Positions 45,473-58,651 of a stretch of DNA of 64,000 nt are shown in pieces. The stretch is from Parapedobacter koreensis (GTDB lineage Bacteria > Bacteroidota > Bacteroidia > Sphingobacteriales > Sphingobacteriaceae), in contig NZ_FNZR01000006.1 in NCBI RefSeq assembly GCF_900109365.1, positions 1-64,000 on the forward strand, given 5' to 3'. A model generated the notes under the pieces. The model did not search any database. It was not told where the DNA came from and saw only the letters and a list, made by a program, of their open reading frames with translations. The number at the start of each line of letters is the position of its first letter. Position 1 is the stretch's first letter. The translations under genes and the position numbers were made by a program.

Positions 45473-46459
45473 TTATTTTTGGATATACATCACTTCTTTT
45501 ACTGCTTTGACTACACGGGCAACGCTGGGTAGGGCAGCCTGCAGCAGCGTGGGAGCATAAGGCAACGGTACATCAGCCGATGTGATACGTACTACCGGGG
45601 CATCCAAATAGTCAAAGGCCTCGCGTTGTACTTTGTATGCAATTTCAGAAGATATGGACGCCAACGGCCATGCCTCTTCCACGATGACCAAGCGGTTGGT
45701 CTTTTTTACGGAATTGATAATCGCGCCATAGTCGATAGGACGCACTGTACGTAGGTTAATGAGATCGACATCAATATTTTCCTTAGCCAGCTCTTCTACT
45801 GCCGGCTCCACTATGCGGGGCAGCATTTTTCCAAACGTCACGATGGTGACATCATTCCCTTCTTTGACGGTGTGGGCCTTGCCCAACTCCAGGTAATACT
45901 CTTCTTCCGGCACTTCTCCTTTATCGCCGTACATCACCTCAGATTCCATGAATATGACTGGATCGGGGTCTAGAATAGCTTGTTTCAACAACCCTTTTGC
46001 ATCATAAGGGTTGGCAGGTACCACAACCTTCAATCCCGGGGTATTGGCATACCAATTTTCGAAATTTTGGGAGTGTTGGGCAGCCAGTTGGCCGGCATTT
46101 CCTGTAGGTCCACGGAATACCATGGGAATGGGAAACTGGCCGCCGCTCATGGAATACATTTTAGCAGCTGAATTGATGACCTGATCAATGGCAACTAATG
46201 AAAAGTTAAACGTCATGAACTCAATGATGGGCTTAAGGCCATTCATGGCGGCGCCGATACCAATGCCCGCAAAACCAAGCTCTGCAATAGGGGTATCGAT
46301 GATTCGTTTCGGGCCGAACTCCTCCAACATCCCTTGGCTTACTTTATATGCTCCGTTGTATTCAGCCACTTCCTCACCCATCAAAAAGATCGTTGAGTCT
46401 TTGCGCATTTCTTCGCTCATTGCCTCGCGAAGCGCTTCTCTGAATTGTATTTCTCTCAT
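45473..46459 (-). CDS. pdhB: Pyruvate dehydrogenase E1 component, beta subunit
   Basis: 328 residues. MREIQFREALREAMSEEMRKD, then GEEVAEYNGAYKVSQGML and AELGFAGIGIGAAMNGLKPI are typical of E1-beta. The subunit binds thiamine diphosphate together with E1-alpha (57656-58651). In Bacteroidota these E1 subunits can also serve branched-chain keto acids, but the pairing with the E2 here favours pyruvate. It lies 11 kb from pdhA/pdhC and is monocistronic with its own terminator. Confidence 0.95.
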   Translation of the reverse strand: MREIQFREALREAMSEEMRKDSTIFLMGEEVAEYNGAYKVSQGMLEEFGPKRIIDTPIAELGFAGIGIGAAMNGLKPIIEFMTFNFSLVAIDQVINSAAKMYSMSGGQFPIPMVFRGPTGNAGQLAAQHSQNFENWYANTPGLKVVVPANPYDAKGLLKQAILDPDPVIFMESEVMYGDKGEVPEEEYYLELGKAHTVKEGNDVTIVTFGKMLPRIVEPAVEELAKENIDVDLINLRTVRPIDYGAIINSVKKTNRLVIVEEAWPLASISSEIAYKVQREAFDYLDAPVVRITSADVPLPYAPTLLQAALPSVARVVKAVKEVMYIQK

Positions 46460-46551: not shown

Positions 46552-47175
46552 TTAGCGATTGATGGAATGGACAAATGCCGTCAGCCACCGGTTCAGGTTT
46601 TCAATGGCCAGCGGGATTTGCCAACTTGCTTTGTTGCGGCGCTCCACGTAGTTTGAAATGGCCCTTATTTGCATGGCCGGTAGCCCAGCTTGATGGGCGG
46701 CATAAAAAACAGCGGCGCCTTCCATGCTTTCGACGGTTGGATTTAGCCGTTGGATGATGCCGTCAATGGTGCGTTCATGGCCATGCACCGTGTTGACGGT
46801 GATGCCGCAGCATTGGCGCAATCCTTGGAACACTGGATAACTCGGGATCAAGGCCCCTTGGAAGGTATGTTTGGCCAAGCCCAGGGCAACGCTGTCCATA
46901 AATTGCTCGCCATCTTCGGCTCCCAGTTCGGCCAAGGTATCCTGGTATACGTATACCACTTCACCCAGTGCGATGGCACGGTCGAAACTTCCTGCGATAC
47001 CTACATTGAGTAATAAGTCATAGTTGGCCGTAACCAGTTTTTGCCCCAACGCAAAAGCTGTGGCCACCATGCCCACGCCCGTGACCAATACATCGATCCC
47101 GCTCCGCTGCTCGTCGGGCGATTGGATGAAGGGCAGGATCTCTCCTTCGGTGGCAGCTATGATCAATACCTTCAT
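46552..47175 (-). CDS. mqnB: Futalosine hydrolase
   Basis: 207 residues of the nucleoside phosphorylase fold. KVLIIAATEGEILPF at the start, GVGMVATAFALGQKL, LLLNVGIAGSFDRAIALGEVVYV and ESMEGAAVFYAAHQAGLPAMQIRAISN near the end are typical of MqnB. It cleaves futalosine to dehypoxanthine futalosine in the menaquinone futalosine route. The start at 47175 (MKVLII) is preferred over a 19-residue extension. It is divergent from lpxK by 55 bp. Confidence 0.9.
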   Translation of the reverse strand: MKVLIIAATEGEILPFIQSPDEQRSGIDVLVTGVGMVATAFALGQKLVTANYDLLLNVGIAGSFDRAIALGEVVYVYQDTLAELGAEDGEQFMDSVALGLAKHTFQGALIPSYPVFQGLRQCCGITVNTVHGHERTIDGIIQRLNPTVESMEGAAVFYAAHQAGLPAMQIRAISNYVERRNKASWQIPLAIENLNRWLTAFVHSINR

Positions 47176-47230
47176 TTGCTTTTGCAGACGAATGTACGCA
47201 AAAGCAATGGAATTACTACTTTTGTTGACC

Positions 47231-48301
47231 ATGGCTTATCTGAGGTTGCTTTTATTGCCGTTTTCGGTGTTGTATGGTCTGGTTATCTGGCTTCGCAATC
47301 GATGCTACGATTGGGGATGGGTTAAAAGTGTTGGGTTTGACAAACCGGTCATCGTGGTTGGCAACCTCGCTGTGGGCGGCACGGGCAAAAGTCCCATGAC
47401 GGAGTACTTGGTAAGACTGCTAAGCAGGCATTATCAGGTAGCCATCCTAAGCCGAGGCTATGGGCGGAAGACGAATGGATTTTTGGAAGTAGCCCTTGAT
47501 GGTACGGCTGAGCAATATGGCGACGAACCGCTTCAATTTAAACGCAAGTTTCCCCATGTTACCGTGGCGGTAGACGAAAACCGCGTCCATGGTGCTCGGC
47601 TGTTGTTTCGGGGCAGCCATGAGGCGATCGTGCTGGATGACGCCTATCAACATCGGGCATTGCGGCCGGGATTCGCTATCCTGCTTTTTGACTACCGGTC
47701 TATGAGCCAGTCCAAATGGTTGCTTCCCGTGGGCAATTACCGCGATAGTTTTCGGGAACGCCGACGTGCCGACATCATGGTCGTCACTAAGATGCCTTCT
47801 ACGGCGACGGAAGCAGAAAAGTGTCGGATCCGCCGTTCCCTTACCACGACCCGGCAAATACCCGTGCTATTTTCGAGTATTGGCTACGGGCCGCTGGTTC
47901 CGTTGTTGCCGGATAAGCATTCAGGGGAAGCGACGCTTAGCAGTGAACACACCATCCTACTTGTGACGGGCATTGCCAATCCTGCACCACTGTACGATTA
48001 TCTCAACGCGCAAGTACGGGATGTCGTACAGCTCCGTTATCCAGATCATTATCCTTATACACTAGCAACTATGCAAACAATAATGACTCGGTTCGGTAAA
48101 ATCGGCAACCCATCCAAATTAATCGTCACAACCGAAAAAGATGCCCAGAGGCTGTTGATGCCCACGTTTTCTACAAGGTTAGCCGATTTGCCGATATATG
48201 TGGTGCCGATCCATGCGCAATTTGACGAGCCGGATGAAAGTATCCTCCAACAGTTGGTATTGCGTTATTGTGCCAATACTTCGGGAGGCAATTCGGTTTA
48301 A
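47231..48301 (+). CDS. lpxK: Tetraacyldisaccharide 4'-kinase
   Basis: 356 residues. One N-terminal membrane helix (about 1-22), then Walker A VGNLAVGGTGKSPMTEYL (about residue 44), LSRGYGRKTNGFL and YGDEPLQFKRKFP with VDENRVHGARLL. It phosphorylates lipid A disaccharide precursor at the inner membrane. The start at 47231 is chosen since it gives the family N-terminus; longer frames run through the promoter and antisense to mqnB. Essential for lipid A, consistent with a Gram-negative envelope. Confidence 0.95.
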   Translation: MAYLRLLLLPFSVLYGLVIWLRNRCYDWGWVKSVGFDKPVIVVGNLAVGGTGKSPMTEYLVRLLSRHYQVAILSRGYGRKTNGFLEVALDGTAEQYGDEPLQFKRKFPHVTVAVDENRVHGARLLFRGSHEAIVLDDAYQHRALRPGFAILLFDYRSMSQSKWLLPVGNYRDSFRERRRADIMVVTKMPSTATEAEKCRIRRSLTTTRQIPVLFSSIGYGPLVPLLPDKHSGEATLSSEHTILLVTGIANPAPLYDYLNAQVRDVVQLRYPDHYPYTLATMQTIMTRFGKIGNPSKLIVTTEKDAQRLLMPTFSTRLADLPIYVVPIHAQFDEPDESILQQLVLRYCANTSGGNSV

Positions 48302-50513: not shown

Positions 50514-51941
50514 TTAGCTGATCTTTAGTTTTTTCTGAATGTCCTGCACGTATGCTTTGAACTTCTTGTCTGTTTCAATAAGATCTTCCACCGTTTGGCA
50601 GGCGTAGATGACCGTGGAATGATCCCGGCCACCGAAAAACGCACCGATGGACTTCAACGAAGTTTTTGTATGGTTCTTGGCTAAATACATCGAGATTTGG
50701 CGGGCTTGTACAATCTCACGCTTCCTGACCTTGGACTTGACCATTTCCACGGGCACCTCGAAATAATCGCACACGAGTTTCTGGATATAATCCATGGAAA
50801 TCTCCTTGTGCGTATTCTTGATGAAATTCTTCAACATGGATTTGGCGAGGTTGAGGTCGATTTCCTTTTTATTCAATGTCGCTTGCGCAAGCAATGATAC
50901 CATGGCTCCTTCGAGTTCGCGTACACTGTTGTCAATCTGATTGGCCACGTATTCAATCACATTATCAGGCAGCTCAATGCCATCGGTATACATTTTCTTT
51001 TTGAGAATGGCCATGCGGGTTTCCAGATCGGGTACCTGCATATCGGCCGAAAGTCCCCATTTGAAACGGCTCAATAAGCGTTCCTCCAGTCCGGCCAGAT
51101 CCTTGGGCGGTTTGTCGGATGTCAGGATGATCTGTTTGCTGGATTGGTGCAGGTGATTAAATATATGGAAGAAGATATCCTGCGTGCGTTCTTTTCCGGC
51201 AAAATTGTGTACGTCATCCATAATGATGACGTCCATTGCCTGGTAAAAATTGACAAAGTCGTTGATGGTGTTGTTTTTCAAGGAATCTACGAACTGCTGG
51301 CAAAATTTTTCACAGGACACATAGATGACCAGTTTGTCAGGCAGGTTACGCTTAATTTCATTACCGATAGCCTGCGCTAAATGGGTTTTGCCGAGCCCCA
51401 CGCCGCCATATATCATCAATGGATTGAAGGACGTGCCGCCCGGCTTGCTCGCCACGGCAAAGCCTGCTGACCGCGCCAAGCGGTTGCATTCGCCTTCAAT
51501 GAAATTATCGAAAGAATAATGCTGGTTTAATTGGGGGTCTACCTGTAGCTTTTTAAGGCCGGGGATGACAAATGGATTTTTGATATCCTTATTAAGCGCT
51601 ACAGGGATAGGGATCGATTGCTTCTTGGCTTCCGCTCCATTGCCACTGGAAGGGATATTGGTGGTATAAGGGTTACTGGTAGAAGATTTTTCTACGACGA
51701 TGTTATATTCCAGTCTCCCATTTTCACCGAGGTGCTTCTTTATCGTCTTGCGCAGCAAACCCACATAATGTTCTTCAAGCCATTCATAGAAAAACAAGCT
51801 TGGCACTTGAATAGTCAAAACGTTACCTTCTAAGCGTACGGCCTTAACGGGTTCAAACCAGGTCTTATAACTTTGTGCAGGAATATTGTCTTTGATGATT
51901 TGTAGACAACTATTCCATACGCTCGTGCTCGTTTTTTCCAT
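50514..51941 (-). CDS. dnaA: Chromosomal replication initiator protein DnaA
   Basis: 475 residues. Domain I (about 1-80), short linker, AAA+ domain with Walker A YGGVGLGKTHLAQAIGNE (about residue 175) and Walker B VIIMDDVHNF, and a C-terminal DNA-binding domain with the signature MYLAKNHTKTSLKSIGAFFG and GGRDHSTVIYA. Length and motifs are normal. It binds DnaA boxes and opens oriC. The upstream 300 bp are AT-rich with one near-match box (listed separately). No dnaN or gyrB neighbour is seen, typical of Bacteroidota. Confidence 0.99.
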   Translation of the reverse strand: MEKTSTSVWNSCLQIIKDNIPAQSYKTWFEPVKAVRLEGNVLTIQVPSLFFYEWLEEHYVGLLRKTIKKHLGENGRLEYNIVVEKSSTSNPYTTNIPSSGNGAEAKKQSIPIPVALNKDIKNPFVIPGLKKLQVDPQLNQHYSFDNFIEGECNRLARSAGFAVASKPGGTSFNPLMIYGGVGLGKTHLAQAIGNEIKRNLPDKLVIYVSCEKFCQQFVDSLKNNTINDFVNFYQAMDVIIMDDVHNFAGKERTQDIFFHIFNHLHQSSKQIILTSDKPPKDLAGLEERLLSRFKWGLSADMQVPDLETRMAILKKKMYTDGIELPDNVIEYVANQIDNSVRELEGAMVSLLAQATLNKKEIDLNLAKSMLKNFIKNTHKEISMDYIQKLVCDYFEVPVEMVKSKVRKREIVQARQISMYLAKNHTKTSLKSIGAFFGGRDHSTVIYACQTVEDLIETDKKFKAYVQDIQKKLKIS

Positions 51942-52241: not shown

Positions 52242-52622
52242 CTAGGGAGCCACTTGCCTTTTTTTGGCGCTTAGCCAGTTGATGCTTAATACAATGATAA
52301 GTATTAACAGGCCGCCCACCTCACGGGTTTCTTCAATCCATGGTTTGTCCGCTTTCATGCTTTGTACGAGCGCCGAGGTGTGTTCGTGTTGAAACCAATA
52401 AAGCACTTCGTGCCTGAAGAACAGGAGATAGATAGCGTAGATAGCGTAAACGCCTATACCCAATAGATAGGCTTTAGTTGGGTAGCGCTTGCCAATGGCC
52501 AAGTAACATAGCCAAGCCGCGTATACATAAATTGGAATCCAAAGATAAGGATCCTCATCATTGTATTGCAGCGCCGCGCTGACCAAAAACAGGATGCAAA
52601 ACAGGATATTAAAAATCTTCAT
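52242..52622 (-). CDS. TMEM220 family membrane protein
   Basis: 126 residues, four membrane segments. The family signature is ALQYNDEDPYLWIPIYVYAA near the N-terminus, and EETREVGGLLI near the end. No function is known. It is oriented away from the TPP riboswitch region, with the start at 52622. Confidence 0.85.
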   Translation of the reverse strand: MKIFNILFCILFLVSAALQYNDEDPYLWIPIYVYAAWLCYLAIGKRYPTKAYLLGIGVYAIYAIYLLFFRHEVLYWFQHEHTSALVQSMKADKPWIEETREVGGLLILIIVLSINWLSAKKRQVAP

Positions 52623-52755
52623 AAGTCATAGGGCTATATGCCAAATGTACAAAAAATTTAGGGATTGGCGACGAATGCAAGGTGAAGGTACATGAAGGGA
52701 AATTTTTTAAAGATTTCGAAACCTTTTCTTCGCCTTGTTGTTTACTATATACAAA

Positions 52756-52837
52756 TGTGCCGGGAGTGCTTAAGCTAATTAGGCTGAGATAATATCCCCG
52801 AACCTGATCTGGATAATGCCAGCGCAGGAAAAGCACA
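52756..52837 (+). promoter_or_regulatory. TPP (THI-box) riboswitch, orphan
   Basis: The conserved thiamine-pyrophosphate aptamer core is clear: GGCTGAGATAA (P2-P3), CCCGAACCTGATCTGGAT and ATGCCAGCGCAGGAA. The outer P1 stem can form from TGTGC (52756-52760) and GCACA (52833-52837). It is on the plus strand, followed 22 bp later by a strong terminator (52860-52897). No plus-strand gene follows; the next gene, gcvP, is on the other strand. Family knowledge: these elements normally control thiamine biosynthesis or transport genes. None is in this window, so this is a decayed leader or a regulated small RNA. Confidence 0.93.
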
Positions 52838-52859
52838 GGTGTACGACGAGAAGTTGTAC

Positions 52860-52897
52860 AAAACCCTATTTTGGCTATGGCCAGAATAGGGTTTTTT
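52860..52897 (+). terminator. Terminator directly after the TPP riboswitch
   Basis: AAAACCCTATTTTGGC pairs with GCCAGAATAGGGTTTT (one G-T pair) with a 4-base loop, followed by a T-run. It ends the riboswitch transcript 12 bp before the gcvP stop. Read from the minus strand it also has a T-rich side (AAAACC before it) and may end gcvP as well. Confidence 0.88.
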
Positions 52898-52909: not shown

Positions 52910-55789
52910 TCAGGCCTCTACTTCCTCATAGGTGCTCAAAGGTGGGCAAGCGCATATAAGCATTCTATCGCCTTGCGAATCATTGACGCGCCCTACGGCA
53001 GGCCAAAACTTATGCTCGCGGACAAATGGGAGCGGGAAGGCTGCCTGCGACCGCGTATAGGGCCTGTCCCATTGATCTGCACTCACCATCGCTACGGTAT
53101 GAGGGGCACCCTTCAAGAGGTTGTTCGTTTTGTCTGATTGACCATTTTCAATGGCATCAATCTCATTGCGTATTGCGATAAGTGCATCGCAGAAGCGGTC
53201 CAATTCGGCTTTAGACTCCGATTCGGTAGGCTCTACCATTAGCGTACCTGCTACCGGGAACGACACCGTAGGAGCATGGAAGCCATAGTCCATGAGCCGT
53301 TTGGCGATATCACCTACTTCCACCCCTGCGGCTTTGAAGGAGCGGCAATCCAATATCAGTTCGTGTGCACAGCGGCCATTGGCTCCCGCGTATAATACGG
53401 GATAATGGTCTTCCAAACGAGCTTTGATGTAATTGGCATTGAGGATGGCATATTTCGTGGCGTTGGTAAGTCCATCACCTCCCATCATCGCGATGTAAGC
53501 ATGTGATATCAACAAGATAGAAGCCGATCCCCAGGGAGCGGCGGATATGGCATGGATGCCTTGTTCACCGCTTATGGCTACTACTGCGTGGTTGGGCAGG
53601 AAGGGTGCCAAGTGCTCGGCTACACCAATAGGGCCCATCCCGGGGCCTCCCCCGCCATGCGGGATGCAGAAAGTCTTATGCAAGTTGAGGTGGCATACGT
53701 CTGCGCCAATGAGGCCGGGGCTGGTCAATCCTACCTGTGCATTCATGTTGGCCCCGTCCATGTATACCTGTCCACCGTATTGGTGGATAATTGCGCATAT
53801 TTCAATGATGGGCTCTTCGAAAACACCGTGTGTAGACGGGTAGGTTACCATCAGTGCCGAAAGGTTGGCGGCATATTGCTCCGCCTTGGCACGAAGGTCG
53901 GCTACATCGATGTTGCCTCGTTCATCACACCGTACGACGACTACCTTCAAGCCAGCCATGCTAGCTGACGCCGGGTTGGTGCCGTGTGCGGATGATGGGA
54001 TGAGTACCACGTCACGGTGGGTATCCCCACGGCTCTCATGGTAAGCACGAATGACCATAAGCCCGGCGTATTCACCCTGTGCTCCCGAATTGGGCTGGAA
54101 ACTTACCTTGGCAAAGCCCGTAATCTCACAGAGCCACTGGTTGAGTTCGTTGATGACCTGCATGTAACCGCCGGTTTGGTCGGCGGGGGCAAAGGGGTGT
54201 AGGCCACCGAATGCAGACCAGGTAACGGGTACCATTTCCGTGGTGGCATTGAGCTTCATGGTGCATGAGCCCAGTGGAATCATGGAGTGGCAAAGTGAAA
54301 GGTCTTTGGCTTCCAATGATTTGATATAGCGAAGCATTTCATGCTCGGAGTGGTAGCTATTGAATACCGGATGGGTGAGGTATGCAGAGGTGCGGCGCAA
54401 GGCCACCGGTATGGCTGGAGCGATCGTGGAAGCTGGTCCCGCTAAATCTACGTCGTTGAGGGTTTTACCCTTCAGCTTGGCAAAGCTACGAACCAGCGTT
54501 TCGATGTCCTCGTAGGTGGTCGTTTCGTCGATGGAGATGCTGGCGATGGTATCTTGGTAAAGGAGGTTTACCTCGTTATTGAGCGCTTCGGCGTGCAGCG
54601 GGCCGGCGAGTTCGCCCAGTTCTATGCGCAAGGTGTCAAAATACGTTTCGTTCAATTGTACGTACCCCAGCTGTTGGAGCGCGCTATTCAATAGCCCGGC
54701 CAGGCCATGGATGCGCTCCGCGATTTGCTGTAGCCCTTTAGGGCCATGGTATGCGGCATAAAACCCGGCCATGATGGCTAAGAGTGCTTGCGCGGTACAG
54801 ATATTGGAAGACGCTTTGTCGCGACGGATATGCTGTTCGCGCGTTTGTAGCGCCATGCGAAGTGCATAGTCTCCGTTGGAGTCTACCGTTACGCCGATGA
54901 TCCGACCTGGGATGTTGCGTTTGTAGGCGTCCTTGGTGGCAAAATAAGCGGCATGTGGGCCACCAAACCCCATCGGGATGCCAAAGCGCTGTGTATTGCC
55001 TACAACGACATCGGCACCCCATTCACCTGGAGGAGTAAGGAGCACCAGGCTCATTAAGTCGGCCACGGCACAAATGGAAATATCCCGTGCGTGCAGGTGT
55101 TCGGCCAAGGCCGTGTAATCGGCTATCGTGCCATCGCCAGCAGGGTATTGTACGAGCACGCCGAAAATCGTATCGGCATCCGGAATGTCTTGGAGATTGC
55201 CCACGGAGAGTTCGATGCCGTAGGACAGCGCCCTTGTACGTAAGACATCGAGGGTTTGTGGAAAAATGTTTTCAGCGACGAAATAAGTCTGGGCAGCCTT
55301 GTTCTTCCGGAGCCCATATTGCATAAACATGGCCTCGGCTGCGGCAGTTGCCTCATCGAGCAGTGAGGCGTTTGCAATTTCCATCCCCGTAAGGTCAATG
55401 ACCATGGTCTGAAAATTCAATAAGGCCTGTAAGCGGCCTTGTGCAATTTCTGCCTGGTAAGGCGTGTACTGCGTGTACCAACCGGGGTTTTCAAACACAT
55501 TGCGTTGGATGACGCCGGGGAGGGTGACATCGTAGTATCCCTGTCCAATGTACGATTTAAAGACCTTATTCTTGTCGGCTATCGTCTTCATCCGACGCAG
55601 GTAGGCCGTTTCCGTCACTGCCGGAGGAAGCGCCAGCGGCTTCTTTGTCCGTATTTGTGCCGGTACGGTTTCATCAATCAATTGGTCAAGGCTTTGGACG
55701 CCAAGGGCGTCTAGCATGGCGGAAGTTTCATCAGCACTGGGGCCAATGTGCCGCTCTTCAAATTTTTCCTGAAAATATATCTTACTCAT
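52910..55789 (-). CDS. gcvP: Glycine dehydrogenase (decarboxylating), P protein
   Basis: 959 residues, a single-chain GcvP (both halves fused). [12 protein letters not shown] at the N-terminus, and the PLP-lysine motif [18 protein letters not shown] in the second half (about residue 700). It decarboxylates glycine and passes the aminomethyl group to GcvH (35700-36080). The start at 55789 ([14 protein letters not shown]) is preferred over 55858. No gcvT is in the window. Confidence 0.98.
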
Positions 55790-55884
55790 GGGTTGTTTCA
55801 CTACCTGGGTGCAGCCATGGTGCTTGCCAGCAAGCAGACGGTAGTTTTTCGGGGGCAAAGATACGGATTTTCAATGAGTAAAAA

Positions 55885-55940: not shown

Positions 55941-57602
55941 TTATGCCAATAGTCGGACGGGCTCTTCCAGCAAGGCCTTGAGTGTCTGCAGGAAGGCGGC
56001 ACCTGTAGCACCGTCTACTACACGGTGGTCACAGGTCAATGTCACTTTCATGATATTACCCGGTACGATTTGCCCATTTTTCACAACGGGCACTTGGTCA
56101 ATGCCACCGATAGCCAGGATGCAGGAATCCGGAGCGTTGATAATGGCCGTAAACTCATCGATACCGAACATGCCCAAGTTGGATACGGTAAAAGTGGATC
56201 CTTCCCAATCAGCAGGCTGCAATTTCTTTGCTTTTGCACGCTGGGCAAACTCTTTCACTTCAGCAGAAATATGTGAGAGCGATTTGCCGTCTGCAAACCG
56301 TACGACTGGCACCAGCAACCCTTCCTCTACGGCTACAGCCACGCCGACATTGACGTGCTCGTTATACCGTATTTTATCACCTTGCCAAGAAGCATTCACG
56401 TCAGGATGTTTTTTCAACGCAACGGCAGCAGCCTTGATAACGATATCATTAAATGATACCTTCACCGGAGCCACCTCGTTGACTTTTGCCCTTGCCTCGA
56501 TGGCACTATCCATGTTTATTTTGATGGTGAGGTAGAAGTGCGGAATGACAAACGTTTCGGAAAGTCGTCGGGAGATGGTTTTTCGCATCTGTGTGACGGG
56601 CTTTTCGGTATAACGCTCTTCGCCCACATATTGTGGAATGCTGATGGTAGCTGCTGGGGCTTGGGCAGCCGCTGCTTGGGTCGGTGCTGCTGCCTGCTTG
56701 GCCGATGGTGTAAACGATTCGACGTCTTTTTTGATGATCCGGCCTCCATCACCCGTACCTTTGACCTCGCCAAGGCTGATGCCCTTTTCTTTAGCGATCT
56801 GGCGGGCCAGAGGAGAGGCTTTCACACGCGAATCTGCTGATGCGTTTGCCGATCCTTCCGTGGTCACCGGTTGTTGAGCAGGTTTTGCCGCTGCTGCTTC
56901 AGGTGTTGTGGCTGCGGACTTCTCCGCTTTTGGAGATTTCCCGGATTGTTGCTTGAGCAGTGGCGTTACATCGGTGCCTTCTTTGCCTACGATGGCAATA
57001 ATGTCATTCACCTTGGCAGCTTTGCCTTTTTCTACACCGACGTATAATAGGGTTCCTTCGGCATAGGCTGTTACTTCCATTGTCGCTTTGTCTGTCTCTA
57101 CATCAGCGATGACGTCATCGCTTTTAATGGTGTCGCCCACTTTGAAATGCCATTCGGCGATCACGCCTTCTGTCATCGTGTCGCTTAGCAGCGGCATGGT
57201 AATGACCGTGGCACCTAAGGATTCAGCAGTTACTTCCTCGCCTTCCTCGCTCGCCTCTACGGGTGTCTCATCTGCCTTTTCTTCTTCAACGGCGGCATCG
57301 GTTTCTTTTTCTGCTTTTTCACCTTGAGTACCTTCGCCATTCAATAGCGCCTGATAGTCTTCCCCCTCTTCGCCCAACACAGCAATGACCGCATCTACGG
57401 GTACAGCTTCCCCTTCTTTCGGACCAATATATAATAATGTCCCTTCTTGGTACGATTCGAAGTCCATGGTCGCTTTATCGGTTTCCACTTCCGCTATCAA
57501 ATCGCCGGAACTGACTTTGTCGCCTACTTTTTTGTGCCATTTTGCGATGACCCCTTCCGTCATGGTATCGCTCATTTTTGGCATTTTTACTACTTCAGCC
57601 AT
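55941..57602 (-). CDS. pdhC: Dihydrolipoamide acetyltransferase (pyruvate dehydrogenase E2)
   Basis: 553 residues. Two lipoyl domains (about 1-78 and 130-208), each with its VETDKATM lysine (about residues 43 and 173), joined by Ala/Glu-rich linkers. The peripheral-subunit binding domain is at about 258-295 (VKASPLARQIAKEKG and GEVKGTGDGGRIIKKDV). The catalytic core (about 335-553) has the TCDHRVVDGATGA active-site motif. It makes acetyl-CoA from the acetyl group delivered by PdhAB. It follows pdhA by about 50 bp. Confidence 0.98.
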   Translation of the reverse strand: MAEVVKMPKMSDTMTEGVIAKWHKKVGDKVSSGDLIAEVETDKATMDFESYQEGTLLYIGPKEGEAVPVDAVIAVLGEEGEDYQALLNGEGTQGEKAEKETDAAVEEEKADETPVEASEEGEEVTAESLGATVITMPLLSDTMTEGVIAEWHFKVGDTIKSDDVIADVETDKATMEVTAYAEGTLLYVGVEKGKAAKVNDIIAIVGKEGTDVTPLLKQQSGKSPKAEKSAATTPEAAAAKPAQQPVTTEGSANASADSRVKASPLARQIAKEKGISLGEVKGTGDGGRIIKKDVESFTPSAKQAAAPTQAAAAQAPAATISIPQYVGEERYTEKPVTQMRKTISRRLSETFVIPHFYLTIKINMDSAIEARAKVNEVAPVKVSFNDIVIKAAAVALKKHPDVNASWQGDKIRYNEHVNVGVAVAVEEGLLVPVVRFADGKSLSHISAEVKEFAQRAKAKKLQPADWEGSTFTVSNLGMFGIDEFTAIINAPDSCILAIGGIDQVPVVKNGQIVPGNIMKVTLTCDHRVVDGATGAAFLQTLKALLEEPVRLLA

Positions 57603-57655: not shown

Positions 57656-58651
57656 TCAATCTAAAATAAAAGGGTAATCGTTCTGTACGTACACATCTTT
57701 GTACAGTTCCTCAACCTCAGGATAGGGGGATTCTTCAGCGAATTTGACACATTCATCAATGGTCTTTTTCACGCCGGCTTCCACCTCTGCAAACCAGTCC
57801 TCATCGGCATATTTCTTTTCAACGATGGCGGCCTTTGTGGTGATGAGCGGGTCGCGCCCTTTGTATTCTTCCAATTCTTCTTTGGTACGATACTTGGCCG
57901 GATCAGACATGGAATGGCCTTTATAGCGGTAGGTGCGCATTTCCAAAAAGGTAGGGCCTTCACCGCTGCGTGCACGTTGGACAGCTTCATCCATGGCATT
58001 ATGTACAGCGATGACATCCATGCCGTCTACCGGTGCACTGGGCATGTCGAAGCCGAGGCCCATTTTATAGATATCGATCATGTTGGTGGTCCGCGCTACG
58101 GATGTGCCCATTGCATAGCCGTTGTTTTCGCAGACGAATATCACGGGCAGTTTCCACAACATAGCCATATTTAGGGCTTCATTGAACGCTCCTTGTCGCA
58201 CAGCACCATCGCCCATGTAACAGATGCAGACATTATCTGTGCCGTTATATTTCTCGGCAAACGCAATGCCAGCACCAAGGGGGATTTGGCCGCCGACGAT
58301 GCCGTGTCCACCCATAAATTTATGCTCCTTGCTAAAAAAGTGCATAGATCCCCCCTTACCTTTGGAGCACCCCGTCGCCTTACCGTAAAGCTCGGCCATC
58401 GCTTCGTTGGCTGATACGCCCTTGGCAATGGCATGCGCATGGTCGCGATAAGCAGTGATCATCGAATCTTCCGGACGCAGTACCGACATGGCTCCCGCTA
58501 CAACAGCTTCTTGGCCGATATAAAGATGACAGAATCCCCTAATCTTTTGCTGCCCGTACAATTGTCCGGCCTTCTCTTCAAATTTACGCATGAGCAGCAT
58601 AGACTTATACCACTCCAAGTAAGTCTCTTTCGTTATAGGTGTCGAACTCAT
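57656..58651 (-). CDS. pdhA: Pyruvate dehydrogenase E1 component, alpha subunit
   Basis: 331 residues. Thiamine-diphosphate motif MGDGAVRQGAFNEALNMA (ending in NN in ENNGYAMGTS), preceded by GGSMHFFSKEHKFMGGHGIVGG. The phosphorylation-loop-like GHSMSDPAKYRT is also present. It forms the E1 heterotetramer with PdhB, encoded 11 kb away. It heads the pdhA-pdhC operon. Confidence 0.98.
   Translation of the reverse strand: MSSTPITKETYLEWYKSMLLMRKFEEKAGQLYGQQKIRGFCHLYIGQEAVVAGAMSVLRPEDSMITAYRDHAHAIAKGVSANEAMAELYGKATGCSKGKGGSMHFFSKEHKFMGGHGIVGGQIPLGAGIAFAEKYNGTDNVCICYMGDGAVRQGAFNEALNMAMLWKLPVIFVCENNGYAMGTSVARTTNMIDIYKMGLGFDMPSAPVDGMDVIAVHNAMDEAVQRARSGEGPTFLEMRTYRYKGHSMSDPAKYRTKEELEEYKGRDPLITTKAAIVEKKYADEDWFAEVEAGVKKTIDECVKFAEESPYPEVEELYKDVYVQNDYPFILD

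Follow-up and report, generated by a model that had tools for sequence, protein, structure and literature searches.

Riboswitches are nearly always leaders of the genes that they control. In Salmonella and E. coli, the short THI-box RNA SroA, which is the thiB leader, builds up as a small RNA. Further riboswitch-derived RNAs such as SreA/SreB and Rli55/EutX bind metabolites and act free on other targets, and they are leader products or lie at the regulated operon. Among antisense-acting riboswitches are one for SAM at ubiG in C. acetobutylicum and one for cobalamin at pocR in Listeria (PMC9943018). In B. thetaiotaomicron, the near-palindromic promoter motif PM2, which has -10 and -30 elements and a link to oxidative stress, drives the trans-acting small RNA GibS (PMC7366714), and a later paper gives a TGTT -10 element (PMC12596196). 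A search of open-licence papers returned nothing relevant on stand-alone or orphan TPP riboswitches or on riboswitches of Parapedobacter. The RNA described here is built on a known aptamer, while its genetic setting is new: it is dispersed, occurs in other genera as well, and lies behind a putative promoter of a non-standard type.

The window, meaning the whole 64,000-nt stretch of DNA analysed, contains a single Rfam match, a TPP riboswitch aptamer (THI element, RF00059) on the plus strand at 52752-52848. The covariance-model search proposed in the earlier note matched the Rfam TPP model over its full length (1-105) at 63.6 bits (E 3.7e-10), the gathering score being 54.3. This confirms the note's reading of 52756-52897 as a TPP aptamer with its own terminator on a strand that carries no gene. 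All consensus core blocks are present, namely CTGAGA, ACCTGAT, GGATAATGCC and GCG.AGG. The aptamer is followed on the same strand by a middle hairpin of 7 bp (GTACGAC-GAGAA-GTTGTAC, 52841-52859) and by a strong intrinsic terminator (52860-52897), for which folding gives a 15-bp stem, an invariant TATG loop (52876-52879) and a T6 tail. As a whole, the 146 nt from 52752 to 52897, comprising aptamer, hairpin and terminator, fold at -58.5 kcal/mol with a z-score of -7.2 relative to dinucleotide shuffles. The coordinates given earlier are correct for the RNA, to which a putative promoter at about 52720-52745 needs to be added. A conserved short peptide within the RNA was considered and rejected, as an ATG in P1 is present in some copies only.

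The RNA gene is directed at the 3' end of gcvP, which encodes glycine dehydrogenase on the minus strand (52910-55858, ATG start at 55789; TIGR00461, 1463 bits). The next plus-strand sequence is antisense to gcvP, and the sole plus-strand open reading frame 3' of the RNA is an 88-aa shadow frame overlapping this gene. On the other side lie, both on the minus strand, a gene for a TMEM220-type small membrane protein (52242-52622, PF15071) and dnaA (50514-51941, TIGR00362), a fixed neighbour of the locus across the genus; the gene order is identical in all relatives. The arrangement typical of a cis-acting riboswitch, with a downstream gene on the same strand, was found in none of the seven Parapedobacter copies, in all of which the terminator is followed by antisense gcvP. 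Profile searches of 19 proteins, including all neighbours between 41.7 and 62.0 kb, and inspection by eye of the remaining translations revealed no gene for thiamine synthesis or transport in the window, in agreement with the earlier note. Genes identified by profile as those for pyruvate dehydrogenase E1 beta (45476-46459), E2 (55944-57602) and E1 alpha (57659-58651) flank the RNA gene on both sides. E1 is a user of TPP, and this proximity is probably a coincidence. Elsewhere in the neighbourhood, the predicted ATG start of the lpxK open reading frame (47069-48298) overlaps the futalosine hydrolase gene on the opposite strand (46555-47232), so the true lpxK start probably lies further in.

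Relatives of the element were searched for with two covariance models, R1 built from the seven Parapedobacter sequences and the broader R2 built from all 15 stand-alone sequences. The overlapping search sets comprised about 400 genomes of the family (twice), 94 of one genus, 395 of the class and 400 of the order. Outside Parapedobacter, the models found eight more stand-alone copies, spread over five genomes from three genera: one each in G269, G134 and G024, two in G080 and three in G371. Seven of these eight, unseen by R1, scored between 55 and 76 bits with it, and the second G080 copy (G080b) scored 48.6; the R2 scores of the 15 copies are not independent evidence, since R2 was built from them. 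Every other strong match that we examined turned out to be an ordinary thiamine-gene leader. This group includes full-length matches with scores close to or under about 85 bits (L135, L138-L143, L097, L100-L105, L150-L153), which were considered as relatives and rejected, because thiamine genes or a TonB receptor follow them directly. Stand-alone copies and ordinary leaders are thus not separated by score alone but by context.

The neighbours of the stand-alone copies vary from copy to copy. Most face a convergent gene, and the neighbours include a convergent NUDIX, Crp-type or thioredoxin-like gene, a tRNA-Ser region, or a co-directional gene. Co-directional genes lie 55-100 nt 3' of the copies in G134 (ECF sigma, FecR), G269 (nnrD) and G371c (glycosyltransferase). 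In G134 (L085:8009-8763), the RNA stands about 90 nt before the ECF sigma/FecR-like pair; 3' of the terminator, this pair seems to have a TATATTTG box of its own. In G371, the near-identity of copies b and c begins at the promoter block and stops where the terminator ends; their flanks are unrelated. Because copies occur in unrelated contexts and this duplication spans promoter to terminator only, the unit is a gene of its own. G080b (L084:11354-11500), 3.5 kb from the first G080 copy, has lost the CTGAGA core and kept the promoter motif, hairpin and terminator; judging from its sequence, it may be either a decaying duplicate or a copy freed from TPP. For the AT-rich copies outside Parapedobacter, the hairpin alone is not improbable as a chance feature (P 0.03-0.3).

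In Parapedobacter, the position of the RNA opposite and 3' of gcvP, pointing at the 3' end of this gene in all seven genomes, suggests that it could act as an antisense riboswitch, in which TPP would control termination and read-through antisense to the gcvP 3' end would lower gcvP expression. There is precedent for this, with two established cases and 83 TPP candidates in a survey (PMC9943018). Folding speaks against such a mechanism. The terminator is predicted to form in nearly all copies whether P1 is allowed or blocked, and P1 and the terminator do not overlap. No conserved antiterminator was found, which bears out the earlier remark that none is visible; in both P1 states, most copies show almost no predicted pairing of the aptamer with the tail, and slight pairing occurs in G080a, G371b, G371c and G003. 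TPP therefore probably does not control termination, and the folding predictions showed no ligand-dependent choice between terminator and read-through. In addition, GcvP is not a user of TPP, and the facing gene elsewhere is a NUDIX, Crp-type regulator or thioredoxin-like gene, a tRNA-Ser region, or absent. Since the copies in other genera face or follow such unrelated genes, the antisense effect on gcvP that had been raised earlier is not supported as the general function, and we consider this explanation unlikely.

A cis attenuator, acting on a read-through RNA or a downstream gene, would have been lost from view in Parapedobacter and would be real in G134, G269 and G371c. The co-directional genes downstream make read-through control possible at these three copies at most. 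However, the three genes are unrelated to one another and to thiamine, the sigma gene of G134 apparently brings its own box, most copies face a convergent gene, and no conserved antiterminator was found. As an account of the RNA, cis attenuation is thus quite unlikely.

The assembly holds four TPP aptamers including the orphan. According to gene names from translated sequences, the other three precede thiM-thiE-thiD-tenA, thiS-thiC...thiG-thiH, and a TonB-dependent receptor, and each has a TAnnTTTG box immediately 5' of the aptamer, which the orphan lacks. TAnnTTTG is the standard promoter box of Bacteroidota. The putative promoter of the orphan (52720-52745, plus strand) consists instead of AAC (52720-52722), a T-rich stretch within an N17 spacer, and GT (52740-52741). 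An AAC-N16-18-GT pattern was found just upstream of all 15 stand-alone copies, with N17 at a fixed distance in 13 of them and N16 or N18 in two. AAC-N17-GT with the T-rich stretch was present in none of 75 ordinary TPP leaders as compared with 13/15 stand-alone copies, while TAnnTTTG-like boxes occurred in 29/75 ordinary leaders and 0/15 stand-alone copies. The contrast between the promoters reaches P = 6e-14, a value that overstates independence because the 15 copies are related.

In ordinary thi leaders of the related genus g16 (L095, L096, L098, L099, L101), we also observed that the stretch separating aptamer from terminator (e.g., ATACGATATATT) shows complementarity of 9-13 nt to the start-codon region after the terminator; in several of them the terminator loop (TCCATACGA) is complementary to it too. 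By this complementarity, these leaders could possibly be combined switches of transcription and translation. Pattern matches were also seen in Lachnospiraceae (L045, L049, L050).

Across the orphan's own genome, the promoter motif is not enriched over the reversed pattern (24 vs 55 matches). However, 15 of the 23 other motif matches lie 20-110 nt before a start codon, compared with 4/30 for the reversed pattern (P = 1.4e-4). In the form AAACYTTTT-N12-GTYTT, the motif stands about 40-70 nt before five genes of this genome (L155, L157, L160, L173, L174), which encode a Dps/ferritin-like protein, a PNPOx-like protein, a YgaP-type membrane protein, a YtxH-like protein (weak match) and an ECF sigma factor. 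These genes suggest that the motif marks a stress regulon in Parapedobacter. The apparent likeness to PM2, drawn from the description of that motif, lies in the AAAC...GTTT arms and the stress-type genes, and we infer that the RNA may belong to a stress regulon comparable to that of PM2.

Of nine Parapedobacter genomes, seven carry the element at the identical locus, between gcvP and the TMEM220 gene beside dnaA. Scanning named genomes for an exact pattern gave P. defluvii, P. indicus, P. pyrenivorans, P. composti and P. luteus as relatives. Averaged over pairs of the seven genomes, identity reaches 81% in the element, 92% in its aptamer and 89% in its terminator, as against 34% at fourfold-degenerate sites of the adjacent gcvP, which are thus saturated. 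All seven pairs of the middle hairpin are kept in all seven sequences (49 cells), with two-sided changes at three of the seven pairs. The terminator stem shows two-sided changes at three pairs as well, and the T-run stands on the plus side in every genome. At this level of synonymous divergence, the sequences indicate that the whole RNA unit is under strong purifying selection across the genus.

Two of the nine Parapedobacter species manage without the RNA gene. In G007 and G008, the gap between gcvP and the TMEM220 gene measures 58-64 nt and holds no trace of the element, so that presence or absence concerns the whole unit. The two genomes do not group in a GcvP tree, which, at weak support, suggests two losses or two gains. 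As in an independent small-RNA gene, the block from the predicted promoter to the terminator is conserved, missing cleanly at empty sites, and duplicated as a unit. These features, together with the copies elsewhere, support the small RNA in the earlier suggestion of a thiamine-regulated small RNA of about 140 nt.

Conservation also bears on two further explanations. As the aptamer is the best-conserved part, the RNA might merely bind and buffer TPP as a reservoir or decoy, but the terminator arms, which buffering does not need, are nearly as conserved. Cellular TPP is normally far above plausible copy numbers of a small RNA, and this stoichiometry makes a reservoir very unlikely. That the RNA is a functionless relic leader of a deleted thiamine operon, as the earlier note had offered and as the resemblance of aptamer and terminator to parts of an ordinary leader and the CTCCATT...AATGGAG terminators that also end the ordinary thi leaders of g16 might suggest, is hardly credible: identity far above the gcvP fourfold sites and stems kept through two-sided changes rule out a decaying leader, every part is under strong purifying selection, the locus is one and the same throughout the genus with clean empty sites, the promoter is unlike those of all ordinary leaders, a decayed copy without CTGAGA is known for contrast in G080b, and the proposed synteny check found no thiamine gene after the element in any relative, at the Parapedobacter loci or at the stand-alone copies elsewhere.

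The reading that we prefer, and regard as fairly probable from the sequence features, is a self-contained small-RNA gene with an ECF/PM2-like stress-type promoter and a predicted TPP-binding RNA that would act in trans. The aptamer, hairpin, terminator, conservation, empty sites and duplication as one unit come from the sequence itself. For the promoter class, judged from the motif, as well as transcription, TPP binding, action in trans and targets, we infer the following course. The stress-type promoter would start a transcript of about 145-150 nt, which would fold into the TPP aptamer, the short hairpin and the intrinsic terminator. With termination independent of TPP, a short TPP-binding RNA would be made whenever the promoter is active, and TPP would act on the finished RNA. 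Bound TPP would lock P1 and the aptamer core, while at scarce TPP the 5' strand of P1/P2 and the core would be free to pair with mRNAs in trans; alternatively, the stability of the RNA may change at low TPP. A trans-acting regulator with a TPP-dependent pairing surface or stability would be the most economical use of such an RNA. No long single-stranded seed is obvious in it, and conservation beyond the aptamer is limited to structure and the terminator arms.

More broadly, and with about even confidence at best, the copies may form a dispersed family of stand-alone small-RNA genes in Sphingobacteriaceae, in which a TPP aptamer and a stress-sigma promoter integrate stress and coenzyme status and regulate mRNAs in trans without a cis gene. 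Taken together, our results suggest a free-standing RNA regulator, and not a leftover, in the soil bacteria Parapedobacter and a few relatives. If true, a TPP aptamer that has long been kept as a separate gene, and that duplicates and appears at new sites, would be a clear example of a trans-acting RNA that senses a metabolite. It would offer a small and simple genetic system for how a ligand alters a small RNA instead of an mRNA, and would connect a stress promoter with vitamin B1 status in the Bacteroidota, a phylum with few understood small RNAs.

Compared with known systems, the aptamer is identical in kind to the RF00059 TPP (THI-box) riboswitch and exceeds its curated score. The ordinary switches of this family in the same genome, however, lead thiamine genes, whereas the RNA in the window has no same-strand gene, another promoter class, and its own hairpin and terminator. 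SroA leads thiBPQ, in contrast to the present RNA, which has no cognate operon. Like the switches at ubiG and pocR, the Parapedobacter RNA lies opposite a gene and toward its 3' end, but the gene that it faces changes from genus to genus, and a ligand-dependent terminator is not seen. With SreA/SreB and Rli55/EutX it would share the action of a metabolite-binding RNA in trans, as proposed here for the stand-alone RNA, and to our knowledge none of these has TPP as its ligand or is a dispersed gene with a stress-type promoter. Finally, GibS is alike in setting and probably in promoter type, being a trans-acting intergenic small RNA of Bacteroidota with the non-standard PM2 promoter (PMC7366714); GibS has no aptamer and carries a single-stranded 5' seed, whereas the present RNA has an aptamer and no evident seed.
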